Positions 2,423 through 25,111 of a stretch of 33,764 nt of DNA are shown here, piece after piece. Every line of letters starts with the position of its first letter. Within the stretch, counting starts at the first letter, position 1. The stretch is from Desulforudis sp. (GTDB lineage: Bacteria; Bacillota; Desulfotomaculia; Desulfotomaculales; Desulforudaceae), in the NCBI GenBank assembly GCA_003604975.1, contig QZIR01000026.1, positions 1 to 33,764 of the forward strand. Reading direction: 5' to 3'. The translations under genes and the position numbers were made by a program. The notes beneath the pieces are model-generated. The model saw nothing but the letters and a program-made list of their open reading frames with translations, was not told the DNA's origin and ran no database searches.

Positions 2423-3280
<858 letters not shown>

Positions 3281-3598
3281 TTGAAGAAGGTCAGTGCGAT
3301 TGTCCGGCCGGAGATGGCCGAAGAAGTGTCCGAGGCCCTGGCCAAGGGTGGGTTCTCTGCCCTTACCAAGATGGATGTGGCCGGCCGCGGCAAGCAGATG
3401 GGTCTCAGGATGGGCAGCGTGTACTACGATGAACTGCCGAAGGTCATGCTCTGGTTAGTGCTCGATGACGAAAGAGTGAACGAGGCCGTGGAGATCATCA
3501 ATAAGACCGCGCACACCGGAAACTTCGGTGACGGCAAAATCTTTATCAGCCCCGTGGAGGAAGCTTACACGATTCGTACCGGAGTGAAAGAGCTATAG
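3281..3598 (+). CDS. nifI1: P-II-family nitrogenase regulator NifI1
   Basis: A 105-residue P-II homologue placed between nifH and nifD, the defining position of NifI1. Start is TTG at 3281, directly after the nifH stop, with AGGGGAG at 3265-3271 inside nifH. The core is recognisable: MKKVSAIVRP, the TGNFGDGKIFISP motif and the IRTG end. The T-loop region (GRGKQMGLRMGSVYYDEL) differs from GlnB, as in NifI1 proteins. In methanogens NifI1 and NifI2 form a complex that binds NifDK and blocks the NifH docking site when 2-oxoglutarate is low. The same post-translational ammonium switch-off is inferred here from homology and position. Confidence 0.93.
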   Translation: MKKVSAIVRPEMAEEVSEALAKGGFSALTKMDVAGRGKQMGLRMGSVYYDELPKVMLWLVLDDERVNEAVEIINKTAHTGNFGDGKIFISPVEEAYTIRTGVKEL

Positions 3599-3612
3599 GA
3601 GGTGGTGGCCAA

Positions 3613-3978
3613 ATGAAAGAGATTATCGCCGTTATTCGGCCGAACAAGATGCAGGCCACCAAGGATGAACTGGCCCGTATCGGATTCCCGTCCATGACCG
3701 CGGCCAAGGTATTCGGGCGTGGTAAACAGAGGGGCCTGGCCGCTGAACTGGCCTTCGATCTACCGGCTAAGCTGGCTACACACGGGGGAGGCATGCGCTG
3801 GATACCAAAGCGGATGGTTAGCCTGGTGGTTCCGAGCAAGGACGTTTCGAAGGTAGTGGCCGCGCTCATCCGGGTCAACCAGACCGGAGAGATCGGTGAC
3901 GGCCGGATCTTTGTCAGCCCGATCGAAGACGCAATCCGTGTGCGCACCCAGGAGAAGGGTGACATCGCCCTGGTGTAG
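3613..3978 (+). CDS. nifI2: P-II-family nitrogenase regulator NifI2
   Basis: A 121-residue P-II homologue, partner of NifI1. The ATG at 3613 follows TAGGAGGTGG, which overlaps the nifI1 stop. Motifs are [12 protein letters not shown] at the start, the NifI2-type T-loop with [20 protein letters not shown] (about residues 48-67), and [16 protein letters not shown]. The longer, basic T-loop is the usual distinction from NifI1 and GlnB and is the part thought to contact NifDK. It lies 44 bp before the nifD start and is almost certainly cotranscribed with nifD. Function is inferred from the established methanogen NifI system. Confidence 0.93.
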
Positions 3979-4022
3979 GGTCATCCGGGCGACGCCATTC
4001 AGATTCAGAAGGAGTAGAAATA

Positions 4023-5447
4023 ATGCCTTTTATCAGACTGAAGTGTGACGAACTGATCCCGGAGCGGGAGAAGCACACCTATATCACAGATAAGGATAAC
4101 CCGATTGTCCCGCTGTGTAACATCAACACGATCCCGGGGGATATGACCGAGCGTGGGTGAGCCTTCGCCGGTGCCCGCGGGGTCGTGGGCGGACCAATTA
4201 CCGACGCTATCCAGATCGTGCACGCCCCGGTAGGGTGTGCCTACTATACCTGGGCGACACGTCGGCACCTATCGGACCAATATGCCTGGTCCCTGCCCGG
4301 GAAGCTGGACAACGTGGCGTTTAACCGCCGCTACTGTGTAGTGACCGATATGGAGGAAAAGGATGTTGTCTTCGGCGGGAGTAAGAAACTTCTAAAGAGC
4401 GCGCTCGAGTCGATAAAGCTGTTCCCGGAAGCGACCGGGGTCATCATGTACACCACCTGTACCTCCGGTCTGATTGGAGACGATATCGGGTCGGTGGCGA
4501 AACAGATCGAGCAGGAGACCGGTAAGCTGGTGTTCTTTGCCGAGGCGCCCGGCTGTTCCGGGGTGAGCCAGTCGAAGGGCCATCATGTGGCGAACCGGCA
4601 GTTCTTTGGACAGATCAACGAGATCCGGCGCAAGCAACCGGAACGGGTCACCCCGGAGGAGGAGCGCACACCGTACGACATCATCTTAGTCGGGGAGTAC
4701 AACATGGACTGGGACCTTAAGGTGATCCTGCCGCTGATGGAGAAAATCGGGGTGCGCGTACTGAGTACCTTCACCGGTAATGCCCGGATGATGGATCTGG
4801 TCCGGCTGCCCGATACCAAACTGAACGTGGTGCACTGCCAGCGGTCGGCAACTTACATCGCGGATATGATCAAGGAAGGCTACGACATCCCCTACGTGAA
4901 GGCGTCGTTCTTCGGTATCCAGCAGACGAACAAGGCCCTGCGCACGATCACCCGGCATTTTGGTCTGGATGAGCTGGCCGAGAAGGTCATTGCCGAAGAG
5001 ACGGCACGCATCCAGCCGGCCCTGGACTGGTACCGCGAACGCCTGAAGGGCAAGACTGTGGCCATCTACGTCGGCGGGCCCCGGGTCTGGCACTGGATCA
5101 AGCTTATGGAAGAACTGGGGATGAAAGTGGTGGCCGGCGCCTGTACCTTCGCGCATGAAGACGACTACGAAAAGATCAACAGCCGGGCGCCGGACGGGAT
5201 GCTGATCATTGATAACCCGAACGAGTTCGAGGTCGAGGAGTTGCTGGAGACCTGTAAACCGGACATCTTCCTCTGCGGCCTGAAGGAGAAGTTCCTGGGC
5301 CGGAAGATGGGCATTCCCACCCTGAACTCGCACTCTTACGAGAAGGGGCCCTACGCCGGATACGTCGGATTTATCAACTTTGCCCGGGATATCTACCAGG
5401 CGTTGGGGGCACCGGTCTGGAGCCTGGTTAACGGAAAGGAGGAATAG
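4023..5447 (+). CDS. nifD: Nitrogenase MoFe protein alpha chain NifD, in-frame UGA read as selenocysteine 46
   Basis: Reading from ATG 4023 (AAGGAG at 4009-4014) gives 474 residues with one in-frame TGA at 4158-4160, codon 46. The context is [20 protein letters not shown]. The same position in other NifD proteins is the conserved RGCAYAG cysteine (Azotobacter Cys62), a P-cluster ligand. Everything else expected is present: second P-cluster ligand Cys72 (HAPVGC), third Cys146 ([11 protein letters not shown]), FeMo-cofactor ligand Cys272 (VVHCQRS), the [12 protein letters not shown] segment and cofactor His437 ([12 protein letters not shown]). The 428 codons after the TGA are intact. A protein starting at GTG 4185 would lack two P-cluster ligand regions' context and has no ribosome site, so recoding is preferred over a short gene or pseudogene. 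A sequencing error (TGC or TGT read as TGA) cannot be excluded. Confidence 0.9.
4158..4195 (+). promoter_or_regulatory. Candidate bacterial SECIS element in nifD
   Basis: The UGA at 4158-4160 is followed by a hairpin: GCCCGC (4173-4178), loop GGGGTC (4179-4184), GTGGGC (4185-4190), six pairs including one G-U. A lower helix GGT (4170-4172) with ACC (4193-4195) continues it across a two-base GG bulge. The loop starts 18 nt after the UGA and has G in its first two positions with an internal GGU, features of SelB-binding bacterial SECIS elements such as that of E. coli fdhF as I recall it. The same bases encode a conserved glycine-rich segment in GC-rich sequence, so a chance hairpin is possible. 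Confidence 0.65.
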
Positions 5448-5453
5448 CAGAAC

Positions 5454-6926
5454 ATGTCCAGCAATTGTCAACCCATACCGATTGAAGGTATTGCCTATAA
5501 CCAGCTCAAGATTGAGAAGAAGCCGATCGTACCCGAATACGTGCCGCGTGATCCGGTTCTGGTCCCCAAGGCCAACCGTACGGTGGTCGTGAACCCGTCC
5601 CGGACCTGTATGCCCTTCGGCGCGATGTTCGCCGGGCTCGGAATGCACCGCGGGCTGCCCTTTGTGCAGGGGGCCCAGGGCTGCACCACTTACGTGCGCT
5701 ACACCTTCTGCCGAATCTTTCAGGAACCGGCTAGCATCGCCAACGCCTCCTTCCACGAGGACGCGGCGGTCTTCGGCGGCCGGAAGAATTTCATCGAGGG
5801 TATGCGTAACCTGATCGTGCGTTATCACCCTGATGTGGTGACCGTGGTGACCACCTGTTCCAGTGAGATCATCGGAGACGACATGGTCAGCTTCATCAAG
5901 GCTGCGCGGAAGCGCCTGATCAAGGAACTGGGCGAGGAGGAGGGCAACCGCCCGAAGCTGGTGCTGGTGAACACCCCCAGTTTCGCCGGTTCACATATCG
6001 TCGGCTACGACCGGGCTTCCCGGGCCTTCCTGGAGACGCTGGCCCAGGACCACTCGAAGCCGAATAACCGGATCAATATTCTCCCCGGGATGGTCATGCC
6101 GGGCGACCTGCGGGAACTGAAGCACATGCTGCGCGAAATGGGTGTGGACGCCTACATCCTGTTTGATATCAGCGACGTGTTTGACACCCCGTTGATGCCC
6201 CCGCAGACCTTGCCCTACTACCCGGAGGGAGGTACCAGGGTCGCGGAAGTCGAGGACATGGGCAACTCGATCGCTACCTTTGCCCTTTGCCAGAACGAGG
6301 GCGGGCTCGGAGCCCGCTACCTGGAGCAGAAGTTCGAGATTCCCGCTTTTATCGGGCCGATGCCGATGGGCGTCAAGAACACCGACCTGTTCCTGAAGCG
6401 GGTGTCCGAGGTTACCGGAAGGGAGATCCCGAAGTCGCTGAAGGATGAGCGGGGACGGCTGTTGGATTTCATGGCCGACACCCTGCACCACACCATGATG
6501 AAGCGGGTGGCCATATTCGGAGACCCGGATATTGCGACCGGCATTACCCGCTTCGCGTGCGAACTGGGTATGGAGCCGGTGGCGGTGATGAGCGGGACAA
6601 AGACCAAGACCTTCACAGCCGACATCGAAGGGATCGTGGGTGAGTTCGGATTCAAGCCGCTGATCCTAAATGGCAGCGACCTGTTTGAGCTCGAGGAGTC
6701 ACTGAAGACGATGCCCGTGGACGTGATCATCGGAAATTCCAAGGGTGCTGATATCGCCAAGGAACTCCAGGTGCCACTGGTCCGGGCGGGACTCTTCGTA
6801 TACGACCGTGTCGGTTACCATAAGCGGCCCGTAATCGGTTACAGGGGAGGGGAACGGTTGCTGGCCGACCTCGTGAATGCGATTATGGATTTCAGCTATC
6901 CCGAGGAGCGGACCCAGCAGCTATAA
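5454..6926 (+). CDS. nifK: Nitrogenase MoFe protein beta chain NifK
   Basis: A 490-residue beta subunit that pairs with NifD. The three P-cluster cysteines are present as ordinary cysteines: Cys52 (TCMPFGAMFA), Cys77 (QGAQGCTTYVR) and Cys135 (VTTCSSEIIGDD). The NTPSFAGSHIVGYD segment with the P-cluster-adjacent serine is also intact. The gene begins 6 bp after the nifD stop with AAGGAGG (5437-5443) inside nifD, so the two are coupled. Thus only the alpha chain carries the unusual UGA. The N terminus is short compared with the Azotobacter protein, as is usual for clostridial NifK. Confidence 0.97.
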   Translation: MSSNCQPIPIEGIAYNQLKIEKKPIVPEYVPRDPVLVPKANRTVVVNPSRTCMPFGAMFAGLGMHRGLPFVQGAQGCTTYVRYTFCRIFQEPASIANASFHEDAAVFGGRKNFIEGMRNLIVRYHPDVVTVVTTCSSEIIGDDMVSFIKAARKRLIKELGEEEGNRPKLVLVNTPSFAGSHIVGYDRASRAFLETLAQDHSKPNNRINILPGMVMPGDLRELKHMLREMGVDAYILFDISDVFDTPLMPPQTLPYYPEGGTRVAEVEDMGNSIATFALCQNEGGLGARYLEQKFEIPAFIGPMPMGVKNTDLFLKRVSEVTGREIPKSLKDERGRLLDFMADTLHHTMMKRVAIFGDPDIATGITRFACELGMEPVAVMSGTKTKTFTADIEGIVGEFGFKPLILNGSDLFELEESLKTMPVDVIIGNSKGADIAKELQVPLVRAGLFVYDRVGYHKRPVIGYRGGERLLADLVNAIMDFSYPEERTQQL

Positions 6927-6931
6927 GCGCC

Positions 6932-8308
6932 ATGTTAAAAAAGGAATATGCCCTTGACGGGTTTAAGCGGGTACCCTTTATTGATCCCGTCCGGGCCGTG
7001 CACGGTGTTCTCATCGATGCCGCGGCGCCGGCGGTTCCGGCCTGTGACCAGCGCACCGTTCCGGGCGTAATGTCCCAGCGGGCCTGCGCCTATTACGGGG
7101 CCCGGTGGTTCCTGGCTCCGCTGAAGCAAGCGATCCACCTGGTACACGGCCCGGTATCCTGCGCCTACTACGGTGAAACGGTACGTAAGAAGAAGTACAC
7201 CGTGTTCTCAACGGACTTGAGCGAGAAAGAGGTCATCTTCGGCGGGGAAGCCAAACTCCTGCAGAACCTTCTGGAGATTGGTGAACGCTTCCCGGACACC
7301 AAGGCCATCCTAATCTACGTTACTTGTGCCCCCGGGTTTACGGGAGACAACGTGGAGCGCGCCTGCCGCAACGCGGAGCAGGCGACGGGGATCCGCTGCG
7401 TGCCTGTGAACTGCCCCGGTTTCCTGGGTTACCACCAGGCTACCGGCCATGAAATCGGAGCACAAGTGCTGCTGGACCACTTTATCGGGCGGGACGACAA
7501 GGCGGAGGCCGGTTCTTACGACATCAACATCCTGGGTGAGTACGACGTGATGGGGGACTACAAGGTCATCAAGGCGCTCCTCGGTAGGATGGGTATAAAC
7601 GTGGTCTCCGCACTCACGGCTGACGCCACGGTGGATAACCTGGCCCGGGCCCACCGGGTACGGCTGAACGTCATACACTGCCGACGCACGGGAGGCCCGA
7701 TGGCCGAGAAGATGCGGCAAAAATACGGCATCCCGCACGTCAAGGTTTCCTTTTTCGGGGTCGCTCAGACCAGTACTGCGCTACGGCAGATCGGGGCGCG
7801 GCTCAACCTGCAGGAGGCTGCTGAACGAGTGATCGCTGAGGAAGAGGCGATGGTCGCCGCCGACCTGGAGCGTTACCGGTGGGAACTGAGTGGCAAGCGG
7901 GTCGGTCTGTTCTTTGGCGGTTCGCGCATCGGGTCGATGCAGAACTGCTATCGGGAACTGGGCATTGAGGTGTTGGCGGCGGGCAGCCAGTTTGGCGGCA
8001 AGGATGATTACCGTGACGCCTGGTCCACCATGAAACCCGGTGCCGCCCTCGTGGATGATACCAACGAGGAAGAGGTCCTGCGTTTCATCCGACAGTACCG
8101 ACCGGACGTTATCGCCGGGGGGATGCGGGAGAAGTGGATCGCGCATAAGTTTGGTATCCCGTTCACCGTCTTTCCGCAAGAAAGCGGTCCCTACGCCGGA
8201 TACTTCGGTTTTCGCAACTTAGCACGCGACATTCTGGTGGCCCTCAAGGCACCGGTGTGGCAGATCGTAAGAGGGGAGTCAGAAACAGATGCTGGATCTA
8301 CGTCTTAA
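6932..8308 (+). CDS. nifE: Nitrogenase cofactor scaffold NifE
   Basis: A 458-residue NifD-like protein, assigned to NifE. The cluster-binding cysteines are Cys52 (SQRACAYYGAR), Cys77 (VHGPVSCAYY) and Cys132 (VTCAPGFTGDN), and IHCRRTGG is also present. The NifD cofactor histidine ([12 protein letters not shown]) is replaced by FPQESGPYAG, as expected for a scaffold rather than an active nitrogenase. In known systems NifE forms a tetramer with NifN on which the iron-sulfur core made by NifB is converted to FeMo-cofactor. Here nifB follows immediately and no nifN is seen. The ATG at 6932 is 5 bp after the nifK stop with no good ribosome site nearby, suggesting coupling to nifK. Its last 20 bp overlap nifB. 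Confidence 0.9.
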   Translation: MLKKEYALDGFKRVPFIDPVRAVHGVLIDAAAPAVPACDQRTVPGVMSQRACAYYGARWFLAPLKQAIHLVHGPVSCAYYGETVRKKKYTVFSTDLSEKEVIFGGEAKLLQNLLEIGERFPDTKAILIYVTCAPGFTGDNVERACRNAEQATGIRCVPVNCPGFLGYHQATGHEIGAQVLLDHFIGRDDKAEAGSYDINILGEYDVMGDYKVIKALLGRMGINVVSALTADATVDNLARAHRVRLNVIHCRRTGGPMAEKMRQKYGIPHVKVSFFGVAQTSTALRQIGARLNLQEAAERVIAEEEAMVAADLERYRWELSGKRVGLFFGGSRIGSMQNCYRELGIEVLAAGSQFGGKDDYRDAWSTMKPGAALVDDTNEEEVLRFIRQYRPDVIAGGMREKWIAHKFGIPFTVFPQESGPYAGYFGFRNLARDILVALKAPVWQIVRGESETDAGSTS

Positions 8309-9173
8309 CAATGTGCCGGTGAACACAGAAACCGTCCGAAACAGGCCTGTCGGTAAGGTTAATGACTTAAAGGGGCACCCGTGCTTTAACCCGGGCGACC
8401 ATCACCGCTTTGGCCGCATTCATCTGCCGGTGGCGCCCCGCTGCAATATCAAGTGCGGTTACTGTGACCGGAAGCTAGACTGCGCGAACGAAACCCGGCC
8501 GGGTACCTCCAGCAGGGTTATCACCCCGGAAGAGGCGCTCCTTGCCCTGCAAAAGGCGTTGGTGGAAGAGCCCCGGATCCGGGTCGCGGCCGTGGCCGGC
8601 CCCGGGGATCCCCTGGCGAATGAGGAAACCTTCCGCACTTTTGAACTGGTTAGTAAGACTTACTCTGGAATGATCAAGTGCCTGAGTACCAACGGGCTGT
8701 TTCTGCCGGGGAAGGTCGACCGCTTGGCGTTGCTAGGGCTAAAAGCGCTTACGGTAACCCTCAACGCGGTTCATCCGGAGATTGGTTCCCGGATCTACGA
8801 GTGGGTCGATTATGAAGGTGAGCGTCTTACCGGCTACGACGCGGCGGACCGGCTGATCAAGAACCAGCTTGAGGGGATCAAGCGGGCGGTTGAACTCGGC
8901 ATCTCGGTCAAGGTAAATACGGTACTGATTCCGGGCATTAACGACAGCCACGTGGAAGAAATCGCGCAAACGGTAAAGGAACTGGGGGTACACCTGATGA
9001 ATATTATGCCGCTCTATCCCGCGGCTTCGTTTAAGGACTTCGCGCGGCCCACCGCTAGTCAACTGCAGGAGGTGCGCTCCACGGCTTCCGGAATCCTGCC
9101 GCAGATGACTTGGTGCCGGCAGTGCCGCGCCGATGCCTATGGGTTGCTGTCGGCCGAAACATGTTTGTCTTGA
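8289..9173 (+). CDS. nifB: Radical SAM cofactor-core synthase NifB
   Basis: A 294-residue radical SAM enzyme that builds the NifB-cofactor (8Fe-9S core with central carbide). The CxxxCxxC motif is at Cys52-Cys56-Cys59 (APRCNIKCGYCDRK), preceded by HPCF and followed by DCANETRPGTSSRV, all NifB landmarks. The C-terminal MTWCRQCRADAYGLL carries the extra cluster-binding cysteines. There is no fused NifX/NafY domain, so this is the short NifB type common in archaea and Clostridia. It starts inside nifE with AGAGGGGAG at 8270-8278. It is the last gene before composition changes into the molybdate transporter block. Confidence 0.97.
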   Translation: MLDLRLNNVPVNTETVRNRPVGKVNDLKGHPCFNPGDHHRFGRIHLPVAPRCNIKCGYCDRKLDCANETRPGTSSRVITPEEALLALQKALVEEPRIRVAAVAGPGDPLANEETFRTFELVSKTYSGMIKCLSTNGLFLPGKVDRLALLGLKALTVTLNAVHPEIGSRIYEWVDYEGERLTGYDAADRLIKNQLEGIKRAVELGISVKVNTVLIPGINDSHVEEIAQTVKELGVHLMNIMPLYPAASFKDFARPTASQLQEVRSTASGILPQMTWCRQCRADAYGLLSAETCLS

Positions 9174-9234
9174 AAGTAAACTTCGGGGGCTGTTGGGGGG
9201 GGGGTGCGAAATGAGAAAGGGAAGGGGTACGAAA

Positions 9235-10053
9235 ATGAAAAAAGTGTTTATTGTCGGATTGGCTGTATTAGTGTTCGCCGTGCTGACCGTGGGGTGTGTC
9301 GATAAAAACGAGGTAAAAATAGCCAAATTCGAGGATTTGGGGCTGGAAGGGGTAAAGATTGCCTCCGGAGACCCCGGACATGTTCCTGCGGGAAAGTATG
9401 CGGTGGATATTCTTTGTAATCTGGAGCAGACCGATCCGGATCTCGCCGGCAAGATCACAAACAACATTGTTACGAGGGAGGCTCACGTCAGAGCTGTTCT
9501 GGACAAGGTTGTTTTGAAGGAAGTTGATGCGGGGTTTGTTTACCGGACGGACGCTTACACCGAAAGAGAAAAGGTTGAGATTATAGAAATACCTGAAGAA
9601 ATCAACGTGGTGCCGGAGTATCCGGTCGCGGTCTTAAAGGGTAGTGACAACCGGGAAGCGGCCGCTGAATTTGCCGGGTTCGTACTCTCTCGGGAGGGGC
9701 AGGAGATACTCGTCGATTACGGATTTACCGGCGTAGTGAGCGATCCGGAACCTTACACGCCGAAGGAGATCAAAGATACCATTGTGGTCTATGCCGCCGG
9801 ATCGTTAACCGATGTCTTTGAAGAAATGGCGACCGAATTCGAAAAGATGACCGGTGGCGAGGTAAAGCTGCTATTCGCAAGCTCCGGCGCTTTAAGACAG
9901 AAGATACAGGCTGGGGCCGTGGGTGGTGAAGCCGGTGCCGATGTGTTTGCTTCGGCCAGTATGAAGCAGATGAGAATTCTCGAAAAGGAGGGCTTCGTGG
10001 CCGACTATGGCGTATTCGCCAAGAACGAAATGGTTGTGGTCGTGCGAAAGTAG
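9235..10053 (+). CDS. Circularly permuted ModA-like molybdate-binding lipoprotein
   Basis: A 272-residue lipoprotein: basic start, hydrophobic 4-18, lipobox LTVGC with Cys21. It should bind molybdate outside the membrane for ModBC. The halves are in reversed order. Residues about 33-175 (FEDLGLEGVKIASGDPGHVP to VDYGFTGVV) match the C-terminal half of ordinary ModA. Residues about 182-272 (TIVVYAAGSLTDVFEEM to FAKNEMVVVVRK) match the N-terminal half. By comparison with E. coli ModA the ligand residues survive: Ser190, the serines of FASSG, Ala52 (HVPAG), Val85 (AHVRA) and Tyr103 (GFVYRTDA). ATG 9235 is preferred because it gives a clean signal peptide behind GGGAAGGGGT; ATG 9211 is an in-frame alternative. 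Its base composition is more AT-rich than nif. modB follows at 10086. Confidence 0.85.
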   Translation: MKKVFIVGLAVLVFAVLTVGCVDKNEVKIAKFEDLGLEGVKIASGDPGHVPAGKYAVDILCNLEQTDPDLAGKITNNIVTREAHVRAVLDKVVLKEVDAGFVYRTDAYTEREKVEIIEIPEEINVVPEYPVAVLKGSDNREAAAEFAGFVLSREGQEILVDYGFTGVVSDPEPYTPKEIKDTIVVYAAGSLTDVFEEMATEFEKMTGGEVKLLFASSGALRQKIQAGAVGGEAGADVFASASMKQMRILEKEGFVADYGVFAKNEMVVVVRK

Positions 10054-10085
10054 GCGCTGTTTGAGGGGTGGGAGGTGTTAAAATC

Positions 10086-10874
10086 GTGCCGATTCGTAGC
10101 GGCTACCTGGCGATAGGCGTTAAATTCGCAACCAGCATCAGTTTGTTGGTGTTTGCTTTGTTGATCATCTTCCCGCTTATCGCATTGGTATTTACTATTT
10201 TCTCGGCCCCGGTGGATTTCAAAGCTTTATCGTCCAGATCGGTGATTAACCCGCTCATATTGAGTGTGCTGACCGCCTTGATTTCAACAGCAATTTCGGT
10301 ACTTGTAGGTGTTCCGCTCGCCTACGTGCTCACCTACAAAAGTTTTCCGCTGAGAGACGTACTTGATACAATGGTGAATCTTCCTTTCGTGTTGCCGCCG
10401 AGTGTGGCCGGATACCTGCTCCTACTGACGTTCGGAAAATACGGGTTGCTTGGATATCCACTCAACATACTGGGAATTACAATTATGTTCACGACCTTCG
10501 CAATCGTCATCGCCCAAACGTTCGTTGCTTTGCCCTTTGTTGTTAAGAGTGCCAGGGCGACAATGGAAGACATTCAACCTTCTCTGATTGATGCCGCAAA
10601 GACGCTTGGAGCGCGTGAGTTTGAAATATTCAGGGAAGTCATCCTGCCCTTATCAAAAACGGGAGTGCTGTCCGGAACAATAATGGCGTATGCCAGAGCG
10701 ATAGGGGAGTTCGGCGCTACCATGATGGTTTGCGGGTTATTGGTGACTTTACCGGTAGCGATCTACGCCAACGCTATAGGCGGGGACAGAGAGACAGCCA
10801 ATGTGCTTGCCGTGGTGCTGATCGCAATTGCCTTCACCATACTTACAGTATTTAAAAGGGTTGTGAGATCATGA
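10086..10874 (+). CDS. modB: Molybdate ABC transporter permease ModB
   Basis: A 262-residue inner-membrane permease of the molybdate/tungstate/sulfate group with about six hydrophobic segments. The cytoplasmic EAA loop that docks the ATPase reads GAREFEIFREVILPLSKTG and is followed by ARAIGEFGATMM, typical of ModB/CysT. GTG 10086 is chosen as the start because GGGAGGTG lies at 10070-10077, at normal spacing; an in-frame GTG at 10068 lies over that ribosome site. It overlaps modC by 4 bp (ATGA). The neighbours, a ModA-like binding protein and ModC, support molybdate over sulfate. Its place between nifB and nifV suggests supply of molybdenum for FeMo-cofactor. Confidence 0.92.
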   Translation: MPIRSGYLAIGVKFATSISLLVFALLIIFPLIALVFTIFSAPVDFKALSSRSVINPLILSVLTALISTAISVLVGVPLAYVLTYKSFPLRDVLDTMVNLPFVLPPSVAGYLLLLTFGKYGLLGYPLNILGITIMFTTFAIVIAQTFVALPFVVKSARATMEDIQPSLIDAAKTLGAREFEIFREVILPLSKTGVLSGTIMAYARAIGEFGATMMVCGLLVTLPVAIYANAIGGDRETANVLAVVLIAIAFTILTVFKRVVRS

Positions 10875-12010
10875 TTGAGCTAATAAATATCGCCAAAAAA
10901 TTTAAGAATAAAGTTGTGCTGAATGACATCAGCCTAAGTGTGGGGAAGGGAGAAATAATGGTGCTCTTGGGGGCAAGTGGGTGCGGTAAAACCACCCAAT
11001 TGAAAATAATAGCCGGATTAGTAAGACAAGACCGCGGGGATGTAGTGCTGAACAATAAAGTGATCAATAATTCACCACCCCAGGAGAGGAACATCGGCTT
11101 CGTTTTTCAGGACTATGCCTTGTTCCCTCATAAAGACGCATTCGAGAACATTGCCTTTGGCTTAAAGATAAGCAAGTTGCCCAGAAATGAGGTAAATAGC
11201 AGAGTATGCAAAACAATGGAAATGCTGGAAATTGGAGATTTTAGGAATGAAAGAATCTCTCGGCTGAGTGGAGGGCAGAAGCAGCGAGTCGCCTTGGCCA
11301 GAGCGCTGGTTATGGATCCGGATGTTTTACTCCTGGATGAACCGTTAAGTGCGTTGGACCCGGTTTTAAGGGAAAAATTGAGAGAAGAACTGAACGCTAT
11401 TCTGAAAAACACTGGCATAGCTGGAATTTATGTAACGCACGATCTGACCGAGGCGATGATCGTTGGGGATAAGATCGCGATCATGAACGAAGGCGAAATA
11501 CAGCAGATCGATAAGCCGGATGAGGTGTTTTATCGTCCCAAAACAGAATTTGCGGCCAGATTCGTCGGGGCAAGGAATATCCTGGAGGGGCGGGTTGTCG
11601 AATTGAACCGGGATGAAGCAACAATTGAGGTGATTAACGGGTCAAATCCATTTAAAATTCGCACCTTGAAGTATCCCCTATTCGAGCGCCAGAAAAATAT
11701 CTCCCTTTGCATCCATCCCGAGGAGGTAGTCCTGGGTTTGAGAGAAGGGGACAATTTGATGCGCGGAACAATCACCGGCATAATTCCGAACGGCCCGGCG
11801 CTAAAGATTACCGTCAATATTGCCGGTTTGAAACTATATGCAACCACTACCAGACGTTTGTTGAACTACGAGGTAAACGATGAAGTTTGGGTATCATTTA
11901 GCAGAAACGCATTTCACCCGCTATGTGGCAAGAAGTGCCGTTCTCCAGCTCGGGAAATTCCCGCATCGTGTGTCAGATCAGGGGGCAGCAAAGAAGCGTT
12001 GTGCCGCTGA
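10871..12010 (+). CDS. modC: Molybdate ABC transporter ATPase ModC
   Basis: A 379-residue ABC ATPase with Walker A GASGCGKTT (about 34-42), Q-loop FVFQDYALFPH, signature LSGGQKQR, Walker B VLLLDEPLSALDP and switch histidine in YVTHDLTEAM. A C-terminal TOBE-like region (about 230-350) would sense oxyanion. The start overlaps the modB stop. The family normally ends near the segment VWVSFSRNAFHPL; here about 28 further residues rich in Cys and basic residues follow, in DNA whose composition returns to GC-rich. This tail may come from read-through into host sequence at the edge of a transferred block. Specificity for molybdate is inferred from ModA and ModB. Confidence 0.92.
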   Translation: MIELINIAKKFKNKVVLNDISLSVGKGEIMVLLGASGCGKTTQLKIIAGLVRQDRGDVVLNNKVINNSPPQERNIGFVFQDYALFPHKDAFENIAFGLKISKLPRNEVNSRVCKTMEMLEIGDFRNERISRLSGGQKQRVALARALVMDPDVLLLDEPLSALDPVLREKLREELNAILKNTGIAGIYVTHDLTEAMIVGDKIAIMNEGEIQQIDKPDEVFYRPKTEFAARFVGARNILEGRVVELNRDEATIEVINGSNPFKIRTLKYPLFERQKNISLCIHPEEVVLGLREGDNLMRGTITGIIPNGPALKITVNIAGLKLYATTTRRLLNYEVNDEVWVSFSRNAFHPLCGKKCRSPAREIPASCVRSGGSKEALCR

Positions 12011-12033: not shown

Positions 12034-12094
12034 GCAAAGCCGGGTGGGTTGATGGACGTGGTTATGCTCTTAAATAGGGAGGGGTGTGGTCAGG

Positions 12095-12919
12095 ATGCTT
12101 ATCATTGTGGACAGCACCCTGCGTGACGGGGAACAGTCGGCCGGGCTGGCTTTTTCGACCGGCGAAAAGATACAGGTCGGAAAACTTCTCGATGCGCTCG
12201 GGGTGGACGTCATCGAGGCCGGCATCCCGGCGATGGGCCGTGTAGAGCAGGAGGCAATCAGCGCCCTGATCCATGCCGGTCTCCGGGCCGAGGTCACCTC
12301 CTGGAACCGGATGCATCCCGCAGACATTAAGGCCTCTCTCGAATGCGGGATCAGGCTCCTACACCTTTCCGCTCCGGTCTCCGACATTCACCTGGAGCAC
12401 AAGCTGCGCTGTAGTCGGTCATGGGTGCTGGGACAGATGCGGGAGATGGTGGCTTTCGCACAGTCCAGTGGCTGCCGGGTTTCCGTGGGGGCGGAAGACG
12501 CTTCACGGGCTGATCCCGCTTTCCTGCGCGCCTACGCCTTGGCTGCCGAGGAAGTCGGCGTCGAACGCCTGCGGATCTGTGACACCCTGGGGATACTGGA
12601 CCCTTTCAAAACCTACGAAATGGTCAGGAGTGTCGTGGAGTGGGTTAACATCGATGTGGAAATACACGCCCACAACGACTTCGGAATGGCTGCTGCAAAC
12701 ACCCTGGCCGCACTTCGCGCGGGCGCCCGGGCCGCAAGCGTCACCGTGAACGGGATCGGTGAGCGGGCCGGCAACGCCGGGCTTCAGGAGGTCATCCGGG
12801 CGGCCCGTCAATTCTTCGGTCTTAAGCGGGGCTATGATGCTAATATAATGGATCAGTTACAGTCTCTGGTACGGGCTTTAAGCTACCGGGAGTTCCCTGA
12901 AGTGAAGGAGGCGATCTGA
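12095..12919 (+). CDS. nifV: Homocitrate synthase NifV, short (catalytic barrel only)
   Basis: A 274-residue member of the DRE-TIM metallolyase family, condensing acetyl-CoA with 2-oxoglutarate to homocitrate, the organic ligand of FeMo-cofactor. The N-terminal [13 protein letters not shown] motif and the metal-binding HAHNDFGMA are present, together with the late barrel motif [12 protein letters not shown]. Full-length NifV proteins have roughly 370-380 residues; this one stops after the barrel, lacking the C-terminal helical portion. Clostridium pasteurianum splits NifV into two genes, but no matching second part is recognised here. ATG 12095 is used because GGGAGGGG (12077-12084) is well spaced; GTG 12086 is too close to it. 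It could also be a related short homocitrate/isopropylmalate synthase-like protein, but the nif context favours NifV. Confidence 0.85.
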
Positions 12920-15537: not shown

Positions 15538-15564
15538 CTATAACAACTGCTAAATATATGAGAT

Positions 15565-15629
15565 GGGGCAATGGCGTCCCTCTGGAAGTTCCTTGTTTTA
15601 AGGGGTTTCCGGGGACGTTTTTTATTTTT
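15565..15629 (+). promoter_or_regulatory. ANTAR-type hairpin plus terminator before the pseudo-glutamine synthetase
   Basis: Hairpin GGGGC (15565-15569), loop AATGGC (15570-15575), GTCCC (15576-15580) with A1/G4; the loop is identical to that before amtB. Its 3' arm is reused by a long terminator: CGTCCC (15575-15580), GGAA and CCTT pair with AAGG, TTCC and GGGACG (15612-15617), followed by TTTTTTATTTTT to 15629. No canonical first hairpin is visible between the predicted start and 15565. Confidence 0.75.
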
Positions 15630-15647
15630 CGGAGGTTATGTAGGCTA

Positions 15648-16982
15648 ATGCAGAGAGTCGTCACTGTAGATGATGTAATCGCGCTTGCTGAGGAGACACA
15701 CGTCAAGTTTGTCCGGTTGCAGATTACCGATATCCTGGGCGCATTAAAGAACGTGGCCATTACGGTGGAGGAACTTGAGCGGGCCCTGGCCGGCCGGGTT
15801 CTCTTCGACAGTGCGATCATCGAGGGACATATCCGGGGCCGGGCACGGGATATCCTGCTTCAGCCGGATCCGTCCACCTTTGAGATTTTTCCCTGGCGAC
15901 CCCGTGACGGCGCCGTGGCGCGCCTGATCTGCGAAGCCCGTAATCCTGACGGGACTCCGTTTGAGGCTTGTTCACGGTTGGTCCTGCGGCGAGCCGCCGC
16001 GGCCCTGCGCGAAGCCGGTCTGGAACTGACCGTCGGCGCCGAGATTGAGTTTTTCCTGCTGCACGGTGACGGTCAGGGCCAACCTAAACTGGAGACCCAC
16101 GACCGGGCCGGCTACTGTGACCTCTCGCCGGTTGACCTCGGCGAAAACGCACGGCGGGACATGGTACTGACCCTGGAGGAGATGGGTATCGAGGTGATGT
16201 CCTCGCACCACGAGGAAGCACCCGGCCAGCACGAGATCGGTCTGAAGGATGACACTGTCGTAGCCATCGCCGATAAAATCGCTACTTTTAAGTTTGTGGT
16301 CCGTACCGTCGCCCAGCGCCACGGATTGCACGCTTCATTTATGCCGAAACCGTTACCGGGGCGGAGCGGTTCCGGCCTGACGCTGAAACTATCCCTGTGG
16401 CGCGAGACGGAGAACCTCTTCACGGTTCAGGATGGTAAGCTCAGCACTGCCGCACGGCACTTTATGGGCGGCCTTATCCGCCACAGCGGGGCGCTGACGG
16501 CCCTGACCAATCCACTAGTGAATTCCTACAAGCGGATGGTTCCCGGCCAGCTCTCGCCATACCTGGCGGCCTGGTCCAGAGATAACCGGTCAACGATGCT
16601 TCGCGTTCCCACGCAGCCCGACGAAAGCGTGCGGTTGTTGCTCCGAAGCCCGGATCCCGCGGCCAATCCTTACCTGGCCCTGGCTGCCATCGTCGCTGCC
16701 GGCCTGGATGGAATAGAGGGACAGATCGAGCCGGAACCTTTTATTAACGACGAGGTGGTCGGGGAAACCGATTCCCCGGCCCTGCGTACCCGGCTGAAGA
16801 AGGACGGTTTACCCCGCAACCTGCAGAACGCACTCCAGGCTTTGGAAGGAGATGAGCTGATCAGCGGTGTACTCGGGGAAGAGGTTGTGCAGCGCTACCT
16901 GAGACACAAAGAGAATGAATGGTCCGAGTTTGAGTCCGAGATTCACACCTGGGAGATAGAGAAGTACCTGGCCAACTATTAG
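15648..16982 (+). CDS. Glutamine synthetase-like protein lacking catalytic residues
   Basis: A 444-residue GSI-family homologue, full length and collinear with the two normal enzymes at 19739 and 25112. Residues kept include the GAEIEFF glutamates, HHEEAPGQHEI and NSYKR. Residues changed are decisive. The GSGMH histidine (His269 in Salmonella) is Thr245 (GSGLTLK). The flap glutamate of VPGYEAP (Glu327) is Leu302 (VPGQLSP). The metal ligand glutamate of RVELRNPDP (Glu357) is Leu331 (RLLLRSPDP). The DGSS loop reads FDSAI. Glutamine synthesis is therefore unlikely; a ligand-sensing or protein-binding role is inferred, perhaps toward the ANTAR proteins. A different gamma-glutamyl ligase activity is less likely without these residues. 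ATG 15648 follows GGAGG (15631-15635) immediately after the terminator; an upstream in-frame ATG at 15558 lies inside the hairpin. Confidence 0.9.
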   Translation: MQRVVTVDDVIALAEETHVKFVRLQITDILGALKNVAITVEELERALAGRVLFDSAIIEGHIRGRARDILLQPDPSTFEIFPWRPRDGAVARLICEARNPDGTPFEACSRLVLRRAAAALREAGLELTVGAEIEFFLLHGDGQGQPKLETHDRAGYCDLSPVDLGENARRDMVLTLEEMGIEVMSSHHEEAPGQHEIGLKDDTVVAIADKIATFKFVVRTVAQRHGLHASFMPKPLPGRSGSGLTLKLSLWRETENLFTVQDGKLSTAARHFMGGLIRHSGALTALTNPLVNSYKRMVPGQLSPYLAAWSRDNRSTMLRVPTQPDESVRLLLRSPDPAANPYLALAAIVAAGLDGIEGQIEPEPFINDEVVGETDSPALRTRLKKDGLPRNLQNALQALEGDELISGVLGEEVVQRYLRHKENEWSEFESEIHTWEIEKYLANY

Positions 16983-17048
16983 AGAGAAAAGGGCTGGACA
17001 CGCCCTCAAGACTTATTCTAATTAAATGATTCAGGAGGATGATTACCA

Positions 17049-18680
17049 ATGACCTTGAGCGTTGGGACGAACGCCAGTCCTGCAACCCTGACCAAGTTGC
17101 GGACCGGTGAAAACCAGTGCCCGCAGAGCGGGATGTGTGTAACCTGTCTGGATGGATGCCCGGGAACGTGTGAGATTGGTAAGTCTGCGGTCCGCAGTAC
17201 CGAGTTGATTTATCCGAAGCCGTACGGGAAGACCACCTCGGCTTCCCAGAAGAAATATCCCGTGGACTACTCGCACTTCAATATCCTGGGTACGCCGGTC
17301 GGCGCCATTGGTGTCGATGCCGACCCCGATAAGGCGATCTTTCCGGCGGTCAACCTGGAGACCGCCCTCGGTGCCAATGGTAACCTGAAGCTGAAGTTCC
17401 CGATGGTGGTTGCGGCGATGGGCTCGACCAAAGTGGCGGCCGACAACTGGGAGCACCTGGCCGCAGGCGCCGCGATCTCCGGCATCGGCATCGTGGTTGG
17501 CGAGAATGTCTGCGCGATGGACCCCGACTCGGAGATCAGGGACGGACGGGTCATTCACTCGCCGGCGATGGAGAAGCGCATCCATTCTTTCCAGGACTGG
17601 TACAACGGGTACGGTTTTATCGCCGTTCAGGAAAATGTTGAGGATTCGCGGATCGGGGTCCTGGAATACGTGATGGAGAAATTCGGCGTAGAGGCCGTTG
17701 AGCTGAAGTGGGGCCAGGGCGCCAAGGACATCGGCGGAGAGGTTAAGCTGGATACCCTGGAGCGGGCCCTGCAGTTGAAGAGCCGCGGTTACATCGTGCT
17801 CCCTGATCCGGAAGATCCGAAGGTACAGGAAGCCTTTAAAGAGGGCGCTTTCAAGGAGTTTGAACGCCATTCCCGGATCGGAATGGTGGAATGGGAGAGT
17901 TTCAACGCCCGTGTCGAACAGATGCGCGCTAAGGGCGCCAAGTACGTCTTTCTGAAGACGGGCGCCTACGGTCCGGCCGACCTCGCCCGGGCGATCAGGT
18001 TTGCCTCTGACGCCAGGCTGGATCTCCTGACCGTGGACGGGGCCGGTGGCGGTACAGGGATGAGCCCCTGGCGGATGATGAACGAGTGGGGTATCCCCAC
18101 CGTGTATCTGCAGTCCATGATTACCTCGTTCTGCGACCGCTTGGCCGCCAAGGGCGCCTACATCCCACCCATCGCCATTGCCGGCGGGTTGACGATGGAA
18201 GACCACATGTTCAAGGGCCTGGCGATGAGTGCTCCGTACGTCAAGGCGATCGGAATGGCCCGCTCGCCGTTGGCTTCGGCGATGGTCGGCAAGAATGTCG
18301 CGCAGGGTATCAAGGACGGTAAGGTGTTGCCGGAGTACAAGAACTACGGTGACAAGTTAGAGCAGGTCTTTGTCTGTGCCCGTGAAGTCCGCGAGATGCT
18401 TGTGAAGGACTATGCGAACCTACCGGTGGGAGCGATCGGTGTCTATTCATACATTCAGCGTCTCACTCAGGGATTGCGTCAGTTTATGTGCGGTGCCCGC
18501 AAGTTCAGCCTCGAATACATCAGCCGCGACGACCTGGTCGCACTGACCAAGGAAGCCGCCGAGATTTCGGGAATCCCGTACGTGATGGGGGCGCAGGCTG
18601 CAGAAGTCGACCGCCTTCTCGGGCACACGGCAAAGGTGACCGGTTTTGTCGGAAAGACTGAACAAAGGTCGGCGAGGTAG
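17049..18680 (+). CDS. FMN-binding glutamate synthase family protein
   Basis: A 543-residue protein matching the FMN-binding synthase domain of glutamate synthase, without a glutaminase domain. An N-terminal cysteine cluster (Cys24, Cys30, Cys33, Cys37, Cys41; CPQSGMCVTCLDGC) suggests an iron-sulfur site. The barrel segment LTVDGAGGGTGMSPW and the following IAIAGGLTMEDHM are typical FMN/2-oxoglutarate-binding motifs. AGGAGG at 17034-17039 gives a strong start. It follows the pseudo-glutamine synthetase by 66 bp and is likely cotranscribed. It may form glutamate from ammonia or a partner glutaminase, or act in another flavin amination; the substrate cannot be read from sequence. The true three-part glutamate synthase is encoded at 21440-24877. 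Confidence 0.85.
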   Translation: MTLSVGTNASPATLTKLRTGENQCPQSGMCVTCLDGCPGTCEIGKSAVRSTELIYPKPYGKTTSASQKKYPVDYSHFNILGTPVGAIGVDADPDKAIFPAVNLETALGANGNLKLKFPMVVAAMGSTKVAADNWEHLAAGAAISGIGIVVGENVCAMDPDSEIRDGRVIHSPAMEKRIHSFQDWYNGYGFIAVQENVEDSRIGVLEYVMEKFGVEAVELKWGQGAKDIGGEVKLDTLERALQLKSRGYIVLPDPEDPKVQEAFKEGAFKEFERHSRIGMVEWESFNARVEQMRAKGAKYVFLKTGAYGPADLARAIRFASDARLDLLTVDGAGGGTGMSPWRMMNEWGIPTVYLQSMITSFCDRLAAKGAYIPPIAIAGGLTMEDHMFKGLAMSAPYVKAIGMARSPLASAMVGKNVAQGIKDGKVLPEYKNYGDKLEQVFVCAREVREMLVKDYANLPVGAIGVYSYIQRLTQGLRQFMCGARKFSLEYISRDDLVALTKEAAEISGIPYVMGAQAAEVDRLLGHTAKVTGFVGKTEQRSAR

Positions 18681-18698
18681 CCTGTTGGGCCAGAATCT

Positions 18699-18714
18699 CT
18701 AGCAAAGGTGCTAG
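18699..18714 (+). terminator. Perfect hairpin after the FMN protein gene
   Basis: CTAGCA-AAGG-TGCTAG, six pairs, lies 19 bp after the stop codon. A T-rich stretch (GGTTTTATAATTG) comes about 10 bp later, so termination would be inefficient. It may separate the operon from the ANTAR gene. Confidence 0.35.
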
Positions 18715-18763
18715 TGGTTAAACGGTTTTATAATTGTATACTCGCCGGAAATGCCTAAATATA

Positions 18764-18793
18764 TTGCAAACTAACGAGCTAATTAACTATAAT
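18764..18793 (+). promoter_or_regulatory. Sigma-A-type promoter of the second ANTAR gene
   Basis: TTGCAA (18764-18769), 18-bp spacer, perfect -10 TATAAT (18788-18793). Predicted transcription start about 18800, some 20 nt before the first hexaloop hairpin, so the whole ANTAR target is included in the RNA. Confidence 0.7.
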
Positions 18794-18819
18794 CATACCG
18801 TAGGTTAAACTTTATAGTC

Positions 18820-18910
18820 GGGTACAGAGTTGTACCCTGGAGTGGCAATGACGCCCTCATCCAGTGGATAGGTAAATTATGCCTGTCGACCGGTGAGGGT
18901 TTTTGTTTTT
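18820..18910 (+). promoter_or_regulatory. Canonical dual-hexaloop ANTAR target and terminator (autoregulatory)
   Basis: First hairpin: GGGTAC (18820-18825), loop AGAGTT (18826-18831), GTACCC (18832-18837). Second: GGC (18844-18846), loop AATGAC (18847-18852), GCC (18853-18855), extended by GAG/CTC. Both loops have A1 and G4, the full ANTAR recognition pattern. The terminator CCCTCATCC (18854-18862) with GGTGAGGG (18892-18899) and T run to 18910 overlaps the second hairpin, so the two folds are mutually exclusive. It directly precedes an ANTAR gene, implying positive autoregulation. Confidence 0.9.
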
Positions 18911-18928
18911 GAGGGGAGGTTAAGTGTT

Positions 18929-19507
18929 TTGCCAAGACAGCAGAGGGTCGTGCTGGTGGACGAAAACAATGTCTGGCGCAAGAACATCAAGGCGATGCTA
19001 ACCAAGGCCGACCTGATGGTCATCGGCGAAGCCGAGGACGGTATTACCGGCCTCAAACTAATCAGGGCCAGACAGCCGGACATTGTGCTTATCGAGGCGA
19101 TGCTGCCCGGGATGACCGGTCTGGAACTGGCGTCCATCGTGCACGGGGATAAGCTGGCGCCGGTGATCATGATGTGCAATGCCTACTACCAGGATCTCCT
19201 GGCAAAGGCGGTCAGCGCCCATGTCTACGGGTTCCTGGTCAAACCGGTGGATGAGCACCAGTTGATCGCCTCCGTGGAAGTGGCGACGGCCCGGTACGCC
19301 GAGATTGTAAACATTGAAGACGAGATCCGCCAGCTAAAGGATAAGCTGGAAACCCGGAAGATCCTGGAGAAGGCCAAGGGTATCCTGATGAACACCCTCG
19401 GGTTGAACGAGGCTGAGGCCTTCCGCCGGATTCAGAAGCAGAGCATGAACCGACGCATATCCATGCGCGCGGTGGCTGAGGCGATCATTCTTACGCACAA
19501 CATGTAG
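18929..19507 (+). CDS. ANTAR-domain response regulator, second copy (Glu at phosphorylation site)
   Basis: A 192-residue receiver-ANTAR protein, the usual size. The receiver has VVLVDENN and the Lys of FLVKPV, but the phospho-acceptor aspartate is replaced by Glu56 (IVLIEAMLPGMTGLEL), and the conserved Thr by Cys (VIMMCNA). Asp-to-Glu at this site often mimics phosphorylation, so the protein may be always active or controlled by a ligand or partner. The ANTAR domain covers about 135-190 (LETRKILEKAKGILMNTLGL and EAEAFRRIQKQSMNRRIS). TTG 18929 is chosen: GAGGGGAGG lies at 18911-18919, and the reading frame upstream runs back into the terminator. A canonical ANTAR target precedes its own gene and another follows before glnA. 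Confidence 0.9.
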   Translation: MPRQQRVVLVDENNVWRKNIKAMLTKADLMVIGEAEDGITGLKLIRARQPDIVLIEAMLPGMTGLELASIVHGDKLAPVIMMCNAYYQDLLAKAVSAHVYGFLVKPVDEHQLIASVEVATARYAEIVNIEDEIRQLKDKLETRKILEKAKGILMNTLGLNEAEAFRRIQKQSMNRRISMRAVAEAIILTHNM

Positions 19508-19552
19508 CATTGTCCTGGAAAGCTTAAGGTTTCCGACGAAGAAAATTTAATA

Positions 19553-19638
19553 CCGGTACAGAGCAGTACCGGAAGGCAACGGGGCCTTCGAAGACGGTTC
19601 GGGTATGTGCCGGAACCTGTCCTTGAAGGTTGTTTTTT
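19553..19638 (+). promoter_or_regulatory. Canonical dual-hexaloop ANTAR target and terminator before glnA
   Basis: First hairpin: CCGGTAC (19553-19559), loop AGAGCA (19560-19565), GTACCGG (19566-19572). Second: GAAGGC (19572-19577), loop AACGGG (19578-19583), GCCTTC (19584-19589). Both loops show A1/G4 and the hairpins abut. The terminator starts in the second arm: CCTTC (19585-19589) pairs with GAAGG at 19625-19629, enclosing GGTTC/GAACC, followed by TTGTTTTTT to 19638. No convincing promoter is seen after the ANTAR stop codon, so the leader may be transcribed from 18764 as well. Confidence 0.9.
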
Positions 19639-19738
19639 CAGGGGTGATGCGATGTTGCCGGTATAGTTCTAGAGTTGGGCACTGGTCCCTGCGGGGACTG
19701 CAAAGCAATAAACACATTCAATTAAGGAGGTTTCTTAA

Positions 19739-21070
19739 ATGGACGTTTCGGCCAAGCAGGAAATCATGGAAAAGGCGAGACAGTTAGGTGTCAAGTTTAT
19801 CCGGTTACAGTTTACGGACATCATGGGCGTGATGAAAAACCTGGCCATTCCTCTGGAGCAGCTGGAAAAGGCCCTCGACGGTGAATTAATGTTTGACGGT
19901 TCCTCGATTCACGGTTTTGCCCGGATTGAGGAGTCTGATATGTATCTGCGTCCCGACCCGCGCACCTTCGTGGTCTTCCCCTGGCGTCCCCGGGACGGTG
20001 CAGTGGCCCGTCTGATCTGCGACGTCTACAAGCCGGACGGTAGCCCGTTCGAGGGCTGCCCCCGCAACACGCTGAAGCGGGTTCTGGCCGAGGCCCGCAG
20101 CATGGGCTACACCATGAATGCCGGCCCCGAAATGGAGTTCTTCCTGTTCCACGTGGACCCGAACGGCAAGCCGCTCCTGGACACCCACGACAAGGCCGGT
20201 TACTTCGACCTTTCACCGGTGGACCAGGGCGAGAACGCCAGGCGTGAGATGGTCATGGCGCTGGAAGAGATGGGTTTTGAAGTGGAAGCTTCGCACCACG
20301 AGGTGGCTCCCGGACAGCACGAGATCGACTTCAAATACTCCGACGCCCTGGACGTCGCCGATAAGGTTGTTACCTTCAAGTTCGTAGTGCGGACGCTCGC
20401 CCAGCGGCACGGCCTGCACGCGACCTTTATGCCGAAGCCGATCTTCGGGATCAACGGTTCCGGAATGCATATGAACCAGTCGCTCTTCCTGAAGGGCGAG
20501 AACGCTTTCGACGATCCGTCCCAGCCCGACGGTCTGAGCCAGACGCTCCGTTACTACGTGGGCGGCCTCTTAAAGCACGCCCGGACGTTCGCGGCGCTGA
20601 CAAACTCGACGGTAAACTCCTACAAGCGCCTGGTTCCCGGTTACGAGGCTCCGGTTTACGTGGCCTGGGCGCAGGGCAACCGCAGTGCTTTGATCCGGAT
20701 CCCGGCCAAGCGCGGCCTCTCCACCCGTGTGGAACTGCGTAACCCCGACCCGGCCTGCAACCCGTACCTGGCGCTGACCGGTATGCTGGCCGCCGGGTTG
20801 GATGGTATCAAGAACAAGATTGCCCCGCCTGAGCTCACGGAGAGCAACATTTACCACCTTACGGGCGCCCAGCTGGATGAAATGCACATTGCGAGCATGC
20901 CCGGCAGCCTGAAGGAAGCCCTGGATGAGTTGGCCGGCAATGATCTGATGAAGGCCGCCCTCGGTTCGCACTGCTTCGAGAAGTTCGTCGAGGCCAAGAG
21001 TGTGGAATGGGATAACTACCGCGTCCAGGTTCACCCCTGGGAGGTAGACGAGTACCTTACCACTTATTAA
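19739..21070 (+). CDS. glnA: Glutamine synthetase type I, first active copy
   Basis: A 443-residue GSI-alpha-sized enzyme making glutamine from glutamate, ammonia and ATP. All catalytic motifs are intact: FDGSS loop, [40 protein letters not shown] flap and [19 protein letters not shown] keeps the arginine that in Bacillus GSI-alpha mediates glutamine feedback. There is no adenylylation-type extension. AAGGAGG precedes ATG 19739. It lies behind the best ANTAR target in the window and next to an ANTAR gene, an arrangement known for clostridial glnA regulation by antitermination. It is followed by a strong terminator at 21213-21253. Confidence 0.97.
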
Positions 21071-21174
21071 GAAGTGTGAAGTGAGATGTGAGTAGAGATG
21101 GCGGAATTCGCATCGCGAATTTCCTCAACCCTCTCACCTCCAAGATCCCACCTCCCACGTCACAATTGGTGGTC
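21071..21174. repeat. Degenerate GTGAG/CTCAC inverted repeat after glnA
   Basis: Purine-rich GAAGTGTGAAGTGAGATG on the left (from 21071) faces pyrimidine-rich CTCTCACCTC and TCCCACCTCCCAC on the right (about 21131-21158), around an inner hairpin GAATTCGC (21104-21111) with GCGAATTTC (21115-21123). Related ACTTCTCACNTCTCAC-like sequence recurs at 26469-26503 and 31233-31284, so it looks like a dispersed intergenic repeat family. No gene is present. Confidence 0.5.
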
Positions 21175-21195
21175 GCGGGGGCTATAAACCCCCGC
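21175..21195 (+). terminator. GC-rich perfect hairpin
   Basis: GCGGGGG (21175-21181), loop CTATAAA, CCCCCGC (21189-21195). A strong stem without a T run; it may act with the terminator that follows 18 bp later. Confidence 0.4.
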
Positions 21196-21212
21196 TGATC
21201 ATCCTCCTGTCC

Positions 21213-21253
21213 CCCTACCGGGGGGTTGGTCTCCCCCCGGTAGGGTCCTTTTT
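21213..21253 (+). terminator. Strong intrinsic terminator after glnA
   Basis: CCCTACCGGGGGG (21213-21225) pairs perfectly with CCCCCCGGTAGGG (21233-21245), 13 pairs around a seven-base loop, followed by TCCTTTTT to 21253. It separates glnA from the glutamate synthase operon. Confidence 0.9.
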
Positions 21254-21439
21254 AACTAACGGGCAAAGGATGTACTAAGTGATGTCCTTTCGTTGCCGAG
21301 TTGCCTGGACCAAGATCTTGAAGGTGGGACGAGGGATGCTGGAGAGTGAAGGCGAGAGAGACCGGACGGCGGTTTCCACGAGGCTTTCACGACCTGTCTC
21401 CTGTACTCCTGCCTCGTATATTAAGGTAGGTGTAGATTA
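21254..21439 (+). other. Unassigned, probably structured leader of the glutamate synthase operon
   Basis: About 185 bp without a gene. AAAGGA pairs with TCCTTT and GGC with GCC inside the span from about 21260 to 21299, and purine-rich GGAGAGTGAAGGCGAGAGAG (from about 21340) faces CCTGTCTCCTG further on. No A1/G4 hexaloop target, T-box core or other known riboswitch was recognised, and no clear promoter. It may be a 5' leader, but this is inference from the pairing only. Confidence 0.3.
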
Positions 21440-24137: not shown

Positions 24138-24139
24138 CC

Positions 24140-24877: not shown

Positions 24878-24878
24878 T

Positions 24879-24920
24879 GGTGCCAGGCACCTAACTTATT
24901 ACCTAACTTATTAACTTATT
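24879..24920. repeat. GGTGCC palindrome and TAACTTATT repeats
   Basis: A 13-bp palindrome, GGTGCC-A-GGCACC (24879-24891), begins 1 bp after the stop codon, followed by three TAACTTATT units (24892-24900, 24904-24912, 24912-24920). Short palindromes of this kind are common in intergenic REP-like elements; no gene is present. Confidence 0.45.
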
Positions 24921-24988
24921 GGGGAACAGTTGCGAATGCCGGCGTGCCGGCGCTACAAATTTGATACTGGCAGGAACAGAAATCTAAT

Positions 24989-25033
24989 AGGCAGGCTGCT
25001 TTTAGTCGGAAAAAGGAGCCTGCCTCCTTTTTT
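24989..25033 (+). terminator. Intrinsic terminator before the third glutamine synthetase gene
   Basis: AGGCAGGCT (24989-24997) pairs with AGCCTGCCT (25017-25025), nine pairs, then CCTTTTTT. It probably ends the glutamate synthase operon. It could be an attenuator of the following glnA, but no A1/G4 hexaloop overlaps it. Confidence 0.8.
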
Positions 25034-25111
25034 ATCAGCCTGTATCAAGGCTGGATTATATGTTATTATCGGAGGGAGCTAGTTAGATAATTTACGGAGG
25101 GATGGGGGAGC

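Follow-up and report, generated by a model that had tools for sequence, protein, structure and literature searches.

We identified a modA gene in which the two parts of the molybdate-binding protein are encoded in swapped order, in the window analysed here (the whole stretch of DNA, 33,764 nucleotides). The product is very probably a natural circular permutant of ModA, a tethered lipoprotein that serves as the binding protein of ModBC and supplies molybdate for synthesis of the nitrogenase cofactor. Judged from its sequence, the ORF at 9235-10053 encodes a permuted homologue of ModA that, by topology, is not a standard member of the family. Coordinates of the gene, its parts and its neighbours are given in Table 1.

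The coordinates and reading frame given in the initial annotation were right, with an ATG at 9235 and a stop codon ending at 10053. A longer ORF starting at 9133 is also present; the start at 9235 is favored by GGAAGGGG upstream and by the signal peptide ending in TVG/C that is read from 9235. The encoded order is a signal peptide to C21, then the C-terminal part of ModA, then its N-terminal part. In a Pfam search, PF13531 (SBP_bac_11) matched as two stretches in reversed order, with profile positions 76-227 aligned to residues 12-165, followed by the N-terminal part. The TIGR01256 (modA) model gave 141.1 bits in two reversed pieces for the unrotated protein and 153.5 bits in a single stretch (1-217 of 217) for the rotated protein, both exceeding the curated cut-off of 62.5 bits. 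Rotated sequence also aligned in one piece with residues 4-231 of E. coli ModA (1amf, 85.6 bits), and solved ModA structures, 1amf among them, aligned with it end to end. Thus, the true circular permutation and the single signal peptide (residues 1-21) that had been claimed for this protein were both found. The cysteine of the lipobox has an identical position in all five permuted homologues, and the window protein has an unusual T at -3.

Table 1. Features of the permuted modA gene, its parts and its neighbours (positions in the window).
Feature	Position	Strand	Details or basis
Nitrogenase genes nifH, nifI-like, nifD, nifK, nifE	2438..8308	+	profile search and ORF survey
nifB, directly upstream	8289..9173	+	TIGR01290, 313.6 bits
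Circularly permuted modA, whole gene	9235..10053	+	272 aa
Lipoprotein signal peptide, residues 1-21	9235..9297	+	lipobox TVG/C21; sequence
Lobe B without first strand (alpha4 to beta9), residues 22-124	9298..9606	+	rotated alignment to 1amf, 1atg, 7t4z
Hinge 2, residues N124-P127	9604..9615	+	alignment to P. aeruginosa ModA His209-Ile212
Lobe A C-terminal part (beta10-alpha9-alpha10), residues 128-164	9616..9726	+	alignment and A. baumannii ModA secondary structure (PMC11734730)
New linker, old C-terminus to old N-terminus, about residues 165-182	9727..9780	+	least conserved part
Lobe A N-terminal part (beta1 to beta4), residues 183-263	9781..10023	+	rotated alignment
Hinge 1 (N264-E265) and last strand MVVVV (beta5, lobe B), to K272	10024..10050	+	alignment to P. 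aeruginosa Gly104-Thr105
modB, molybdate ABC permease	10068..10874	+	TIGR02141, 198.0 bits (cut-off 182.6)
modC-like ABC ATPase with TOBE domain	10871..12010	+	ABC_tran and TOBE
nifV (homocitrate synthase), directly downstream	12086..12919	+	TIGR02660, 345.6 bits

The initial annotation had proposed a search for homologues with the same order, and four other genomes provided them. These proteins were full-length and colinear, each in one open frame, with 99% (G001, from the same genus as the window organism), 70% (G067), 58% (G059) and 51% (G442) identity; the G442 genome, which belongs to another class of the same phylum, is assembled as a single contig. Because homologues in four separate genomes share the order, the swap is real and not an assembly join. 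A hybrid made by collapse of two tandem canonical modA genes, which the initial annotation had named as a refutation, was considered because the window genome is a draft of 75 contigs; given the shared colinear order in four genomes, one of them a single contig, the absence of direct repeats of at least 14 bases across the gene and the conserved position of the linker, we reject this explanation as having next to no probability.

Occurrence of the permuted form was limited. It was detected in 4 of the 113 genomes of the whole order. A phylum-wide sample of about 400 genomes added one more case, and 59 genomes from one further class added none; sampling was almost wholly inside one phylum. No relative was detected in viral contigs, and the best match in plasmids, that in Deinococcus H1, has canonical order. 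When rotated permuted sequences were placed in a tree together with canonical ones, they formed one clade with support of 100/96, and a single origin is therefore the simplest reading. The form is spread over two families of one order and one distant class and is missing from most relatives, which suggests transfer or many losses.

Purifying selection acts on both halves of the protein. In the comparison with G067, dN/dS was about 0.11 for the first half (C-part) and 0.06 for the second (N-part), with dS near or beyond saturation. In three divergent comparisons, identity was 25-44% in the linker (residues 166-181) and 55-75% in the two parts. In addition, all permuted members contain a five-residue insert before beta3 (VGGEA region), unlike canonical ModA.

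In P. aeruginosa ModA, the hinges are at Gly104-Thr105 and His209-Ile212 (PMC9171197). Lobe A of A. baumannii ModA consists of beta1 to beta4 together with beta10-alpha9-alpha10, whereas beta5 to beta9 form lobe B (PMC11734730). To map the hinges, the window protein was aligned with the sequences of 1atg, 7t4z (P. aeruginosa) and 1amf; the 1atg query was identical to the PDB chain over its full length. Both hinge crossovers, N264-E265 and N124-P127 by alignment to P. aeruginosa ModA, lie inside the permuted chain. The new chain ends fall in the beta5/alpha4 loop, inside lobe B and one strand beyond the crossover, and lobe A is now contiguous. The cut had previously been placed at the crossover between lobes, which is wrong: hinge 1 (N264-E265) is within the chain, and strand 266-270 (MVVVV) after it belongs to lobe B. 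The topology also gives no support to the changed hinge motion that had been suggested; since both hinges remain in the chain, altered motion is not expected on topological grounds. Rather, both termini and the lipid anchor would have moved from lobe A to lobe B according to this mapping, so that a change of tether point, and not of hinge, would be expected.

We infer a fold in which the chain would begin in lobe B (alpha4) and then cross hinge 2. Lobe A would be completed from the old C-terminal piece, the new linker and the old N-terminal piece; hinge 1 would be crossed last, and strand beta5 would be added back into lobe B. Because both hinges and the five oxyanion-binding positions are kept, permuted ModA is expected to close around molybdate as other ModA proteins do and to dock on ModB. 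An AlphaFold2 model, for which the input comprised only two near-identical sequences (that of the window and the 99% identical L029), had a pLDDT of 33 and a pTM of 0.28, values too low for the model to be of use.

Residues S12, S39, A125, V152 and Y170, which we take to be the molybdate ligands of E. coli ModA (1AMF), were mapped by rotated alignment to S190, S217, A52, V85 and Y103. The lobe B section (residues 22-124) holds A52, V85 and Y103, and the N-terminal section of lobe A (residues 183-263) holds S190 and S217. All five positions are present, in agreement with the annotation, in which the binding residues had been described as kept. Four of the five residues are invariant across the five permuted homologues, and A52 is replaced by V in G442. 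Equivalent ligands in A. baumannii ModA are S39, S66, V150, V177 and Y195 (PMC11734730).

The permuted modA is adjoined by modB and a TOBE-domain ABC ATPase gene, and the intact modB and modC that had been reported downstream were recovered. The ATPase scored below the NCBIfam modC and wtpC equivalog cut-offs and nearer to the WtpC and PotA models than to modC. Nif genes are neighbours of the permuted modA in the window, G001 and G059, and nifV is its neighbour in G067. In G442 (C1:68905-69756, L052), permuted modA and modB are located beside a xanthine dehydrogenase-type iron-sulfur subunit and a molybdenum-cofactor domain protein, with no modC beside modB and no nif context.

The ligand residues by themselves do not distinguish molybdate from tungstate, and on sequence alone tungstate would be an equally possible ligand. 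Together with the higher score of the companion ATPase on the WtpC model than on modC, this leaves some room for a protein whose ligand has shifted (e.g., to tungstate), or that acts as a tethered sensor instead of a transport protein. However, the gene is linked with nif or, in G442, with xanthine dehydrogenase and Mo-cofactor genes, its ModB passes the molybdate model, and the window genome holds a separate TupABC for tungstate; we consider a shifted ligand or a sensor unlikely. Molybdate uptake for Mo enzymes appears to be the best reading of function.

In all five genomes, the only ModB above the TIGR02141 cut-off adjoins the permuted gene, and in the four relatives the permuted protein is the only ModA above the TIGR01256 cut-off. 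In the genome of the window (G000), the other ModA-model match above the cut-off is a one-lobe remnant on C1. It is part of a canonical-order modABC remnant (C1:202-1461, L034), in which ModA stops after the first lobe, the first part of ModB is missing and ModC is without its front part (Walker A); the remnant reflects either operon decay or a deletion at the end of the contig. Other PF13531 matches identified in this genome, besides the C1 remnant, were a WtpA-like protein (C15) and TupA (C4), and matches on C2 and a second one on C15 resemble PotD and PstS by eye. For the WtpA-like gene (C15:48961-49875; L035:4962-5876, minus strand), the modelled start gives no obvious signal peptide, and neither a permease nor an ATPase is encoded next to it.

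Presence of the WtpA-like protein and TupA in the same genome would also fit a permuted gene that is a decayed, non-functional remnant of a modA rearrangement, with another protein feeding ModBC. Such decay is very unlikely: both halves are under purifying selection, the frames are open in five genomes, the operon that is broken is the canonical-order modABC on C1, and the four relatives lack any other ModA above the cut-off. Permuted ModA is therefore retained as the apparent binding protein of this system, the role that the initial annotation had assigned to it, and apparently as the sole one.

The permuted form likely originated by tandem duplication and fusion of modA, after which the first N-part and the last C-part would have been lost. 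Duplication and fusion with loss of these outer parts would account for the present order with one signal peptide. A repeat search of 9100-10900 detected no remnant or repeat of a duplication intermediate. Canonical nif-linked ModA of other Bacillota (e.g., G463, L043) is located between a nifB-like gene and modB and has the residues flanking the cut, FAKNKL...KIAKIADL, in common with the permuted protein, but has canonical order and falls outside the permuted clade. Because this canonical gene has the same position between the nifB-like gene and modB, and its product resembles the permuted proteins on either side of the cut, a canonical nif-linked modA of this type could have been the gene that the permuted form replaced.

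Natural circular permutants are usually old and difficult to align. Permuted ModA is recent enough for whole-length alignment of rotated and canonical forms; its members group in one clade, and the genomes that encode it have no other intact ModA-type protein. Compared to known ModA proteins (TIGR01256; E. coli 1AMF, A. vinelandii 1ATG and P. aeruginosa 7T4Z), it contains all segments, the ligand positions and both hinges, and has a modBC partner and Mo-enzyme context as they do. It differs from canonical ModA in segment order (B-A-B versus lobe A-lobe B-lobe A), in the predicted location of its termini and lipid anchor on lobe B, and in the new linker. We found no published permuted ModA in the open-licence literature, coverage of which was incomplete.

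Other naturally permuted binding proteins have been described. TpMglB-2 (Tp0684) of Treponema pallidum, a glucose-binding lipoprotein, is a natural circular permutant that still binds ligand and changes conformation (PMC4990184), and it is similar to permuted ModA in being a tethered, permuted binding protein of an ABC system. However, it has a type I (cluster B) sugar-binding fold, is permuted within the N lobe and has acquired a fourth crossover, and identity to MglB is only 13% in the permuted segment (PMC4990184). In contrast, homology of the permuted ModA is plain; its fold would be the type II (cluster D) oxyanion-binding fold, with no crossover gained or lost. The sequence is that of ModA (type II), and membership in the TpMglB-2 type (type Ic, cluster Bc) was rejected. 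Structural permutation relations among glycine-betaine-binding proteins, ModA and CysB were reported in 2008 (CPSARST, PMC2395249), and thus the type II binding-protein fold occurs naturally in permuted forms. Those relations are between families with less than 24% identity (PMC2395249), whereas the permutation described here occurred within the ModA family.

The new order could itself have been adaptive, although we regard this as doubtful. A tether moved to lobe B might alter seating on ModB or the speed at which the clamp opens or closes, and might have been favored enough for the permuted form to take over from canonical ModA as the only molybdate-binding protein of several Bacillota that fix nitrogen or degrade purines. 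Tethering was also raised by the authors of the TpMglB-2 study as a possible reason for permutation (PMC4990184). Permuted ModA provides a clean natural experiment on venus-flytrap binding proteins and the ABC transporters they serve, in which the importance of chain order or of the tethered lobe can be examined; with both hinges preserved, any difference in binding or transport could be traced to the tether point and not to the hinge.

Several additional features of the nif region were observed. In the window, the NifX-like C-terminal part of the model is missing from nifB (294 aa versus 441), and nifV is short (277 aa versus 365); both genes occur in the same short forms in G059. At 6926-8308 in the window, nifE is followed straight by nifB, with no nifN, and in G059 (L032:5046-8069) a nifK/nifN-like gene is directly upstream of nifE. 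Further downstream, three glutamine synthetase-like genes (15558-16982, 19739-21070 and 25112-26443) were recognized by eye within 11 kb, with response-regulator-like ORFs, also seen by eye, between them (15558-26443).
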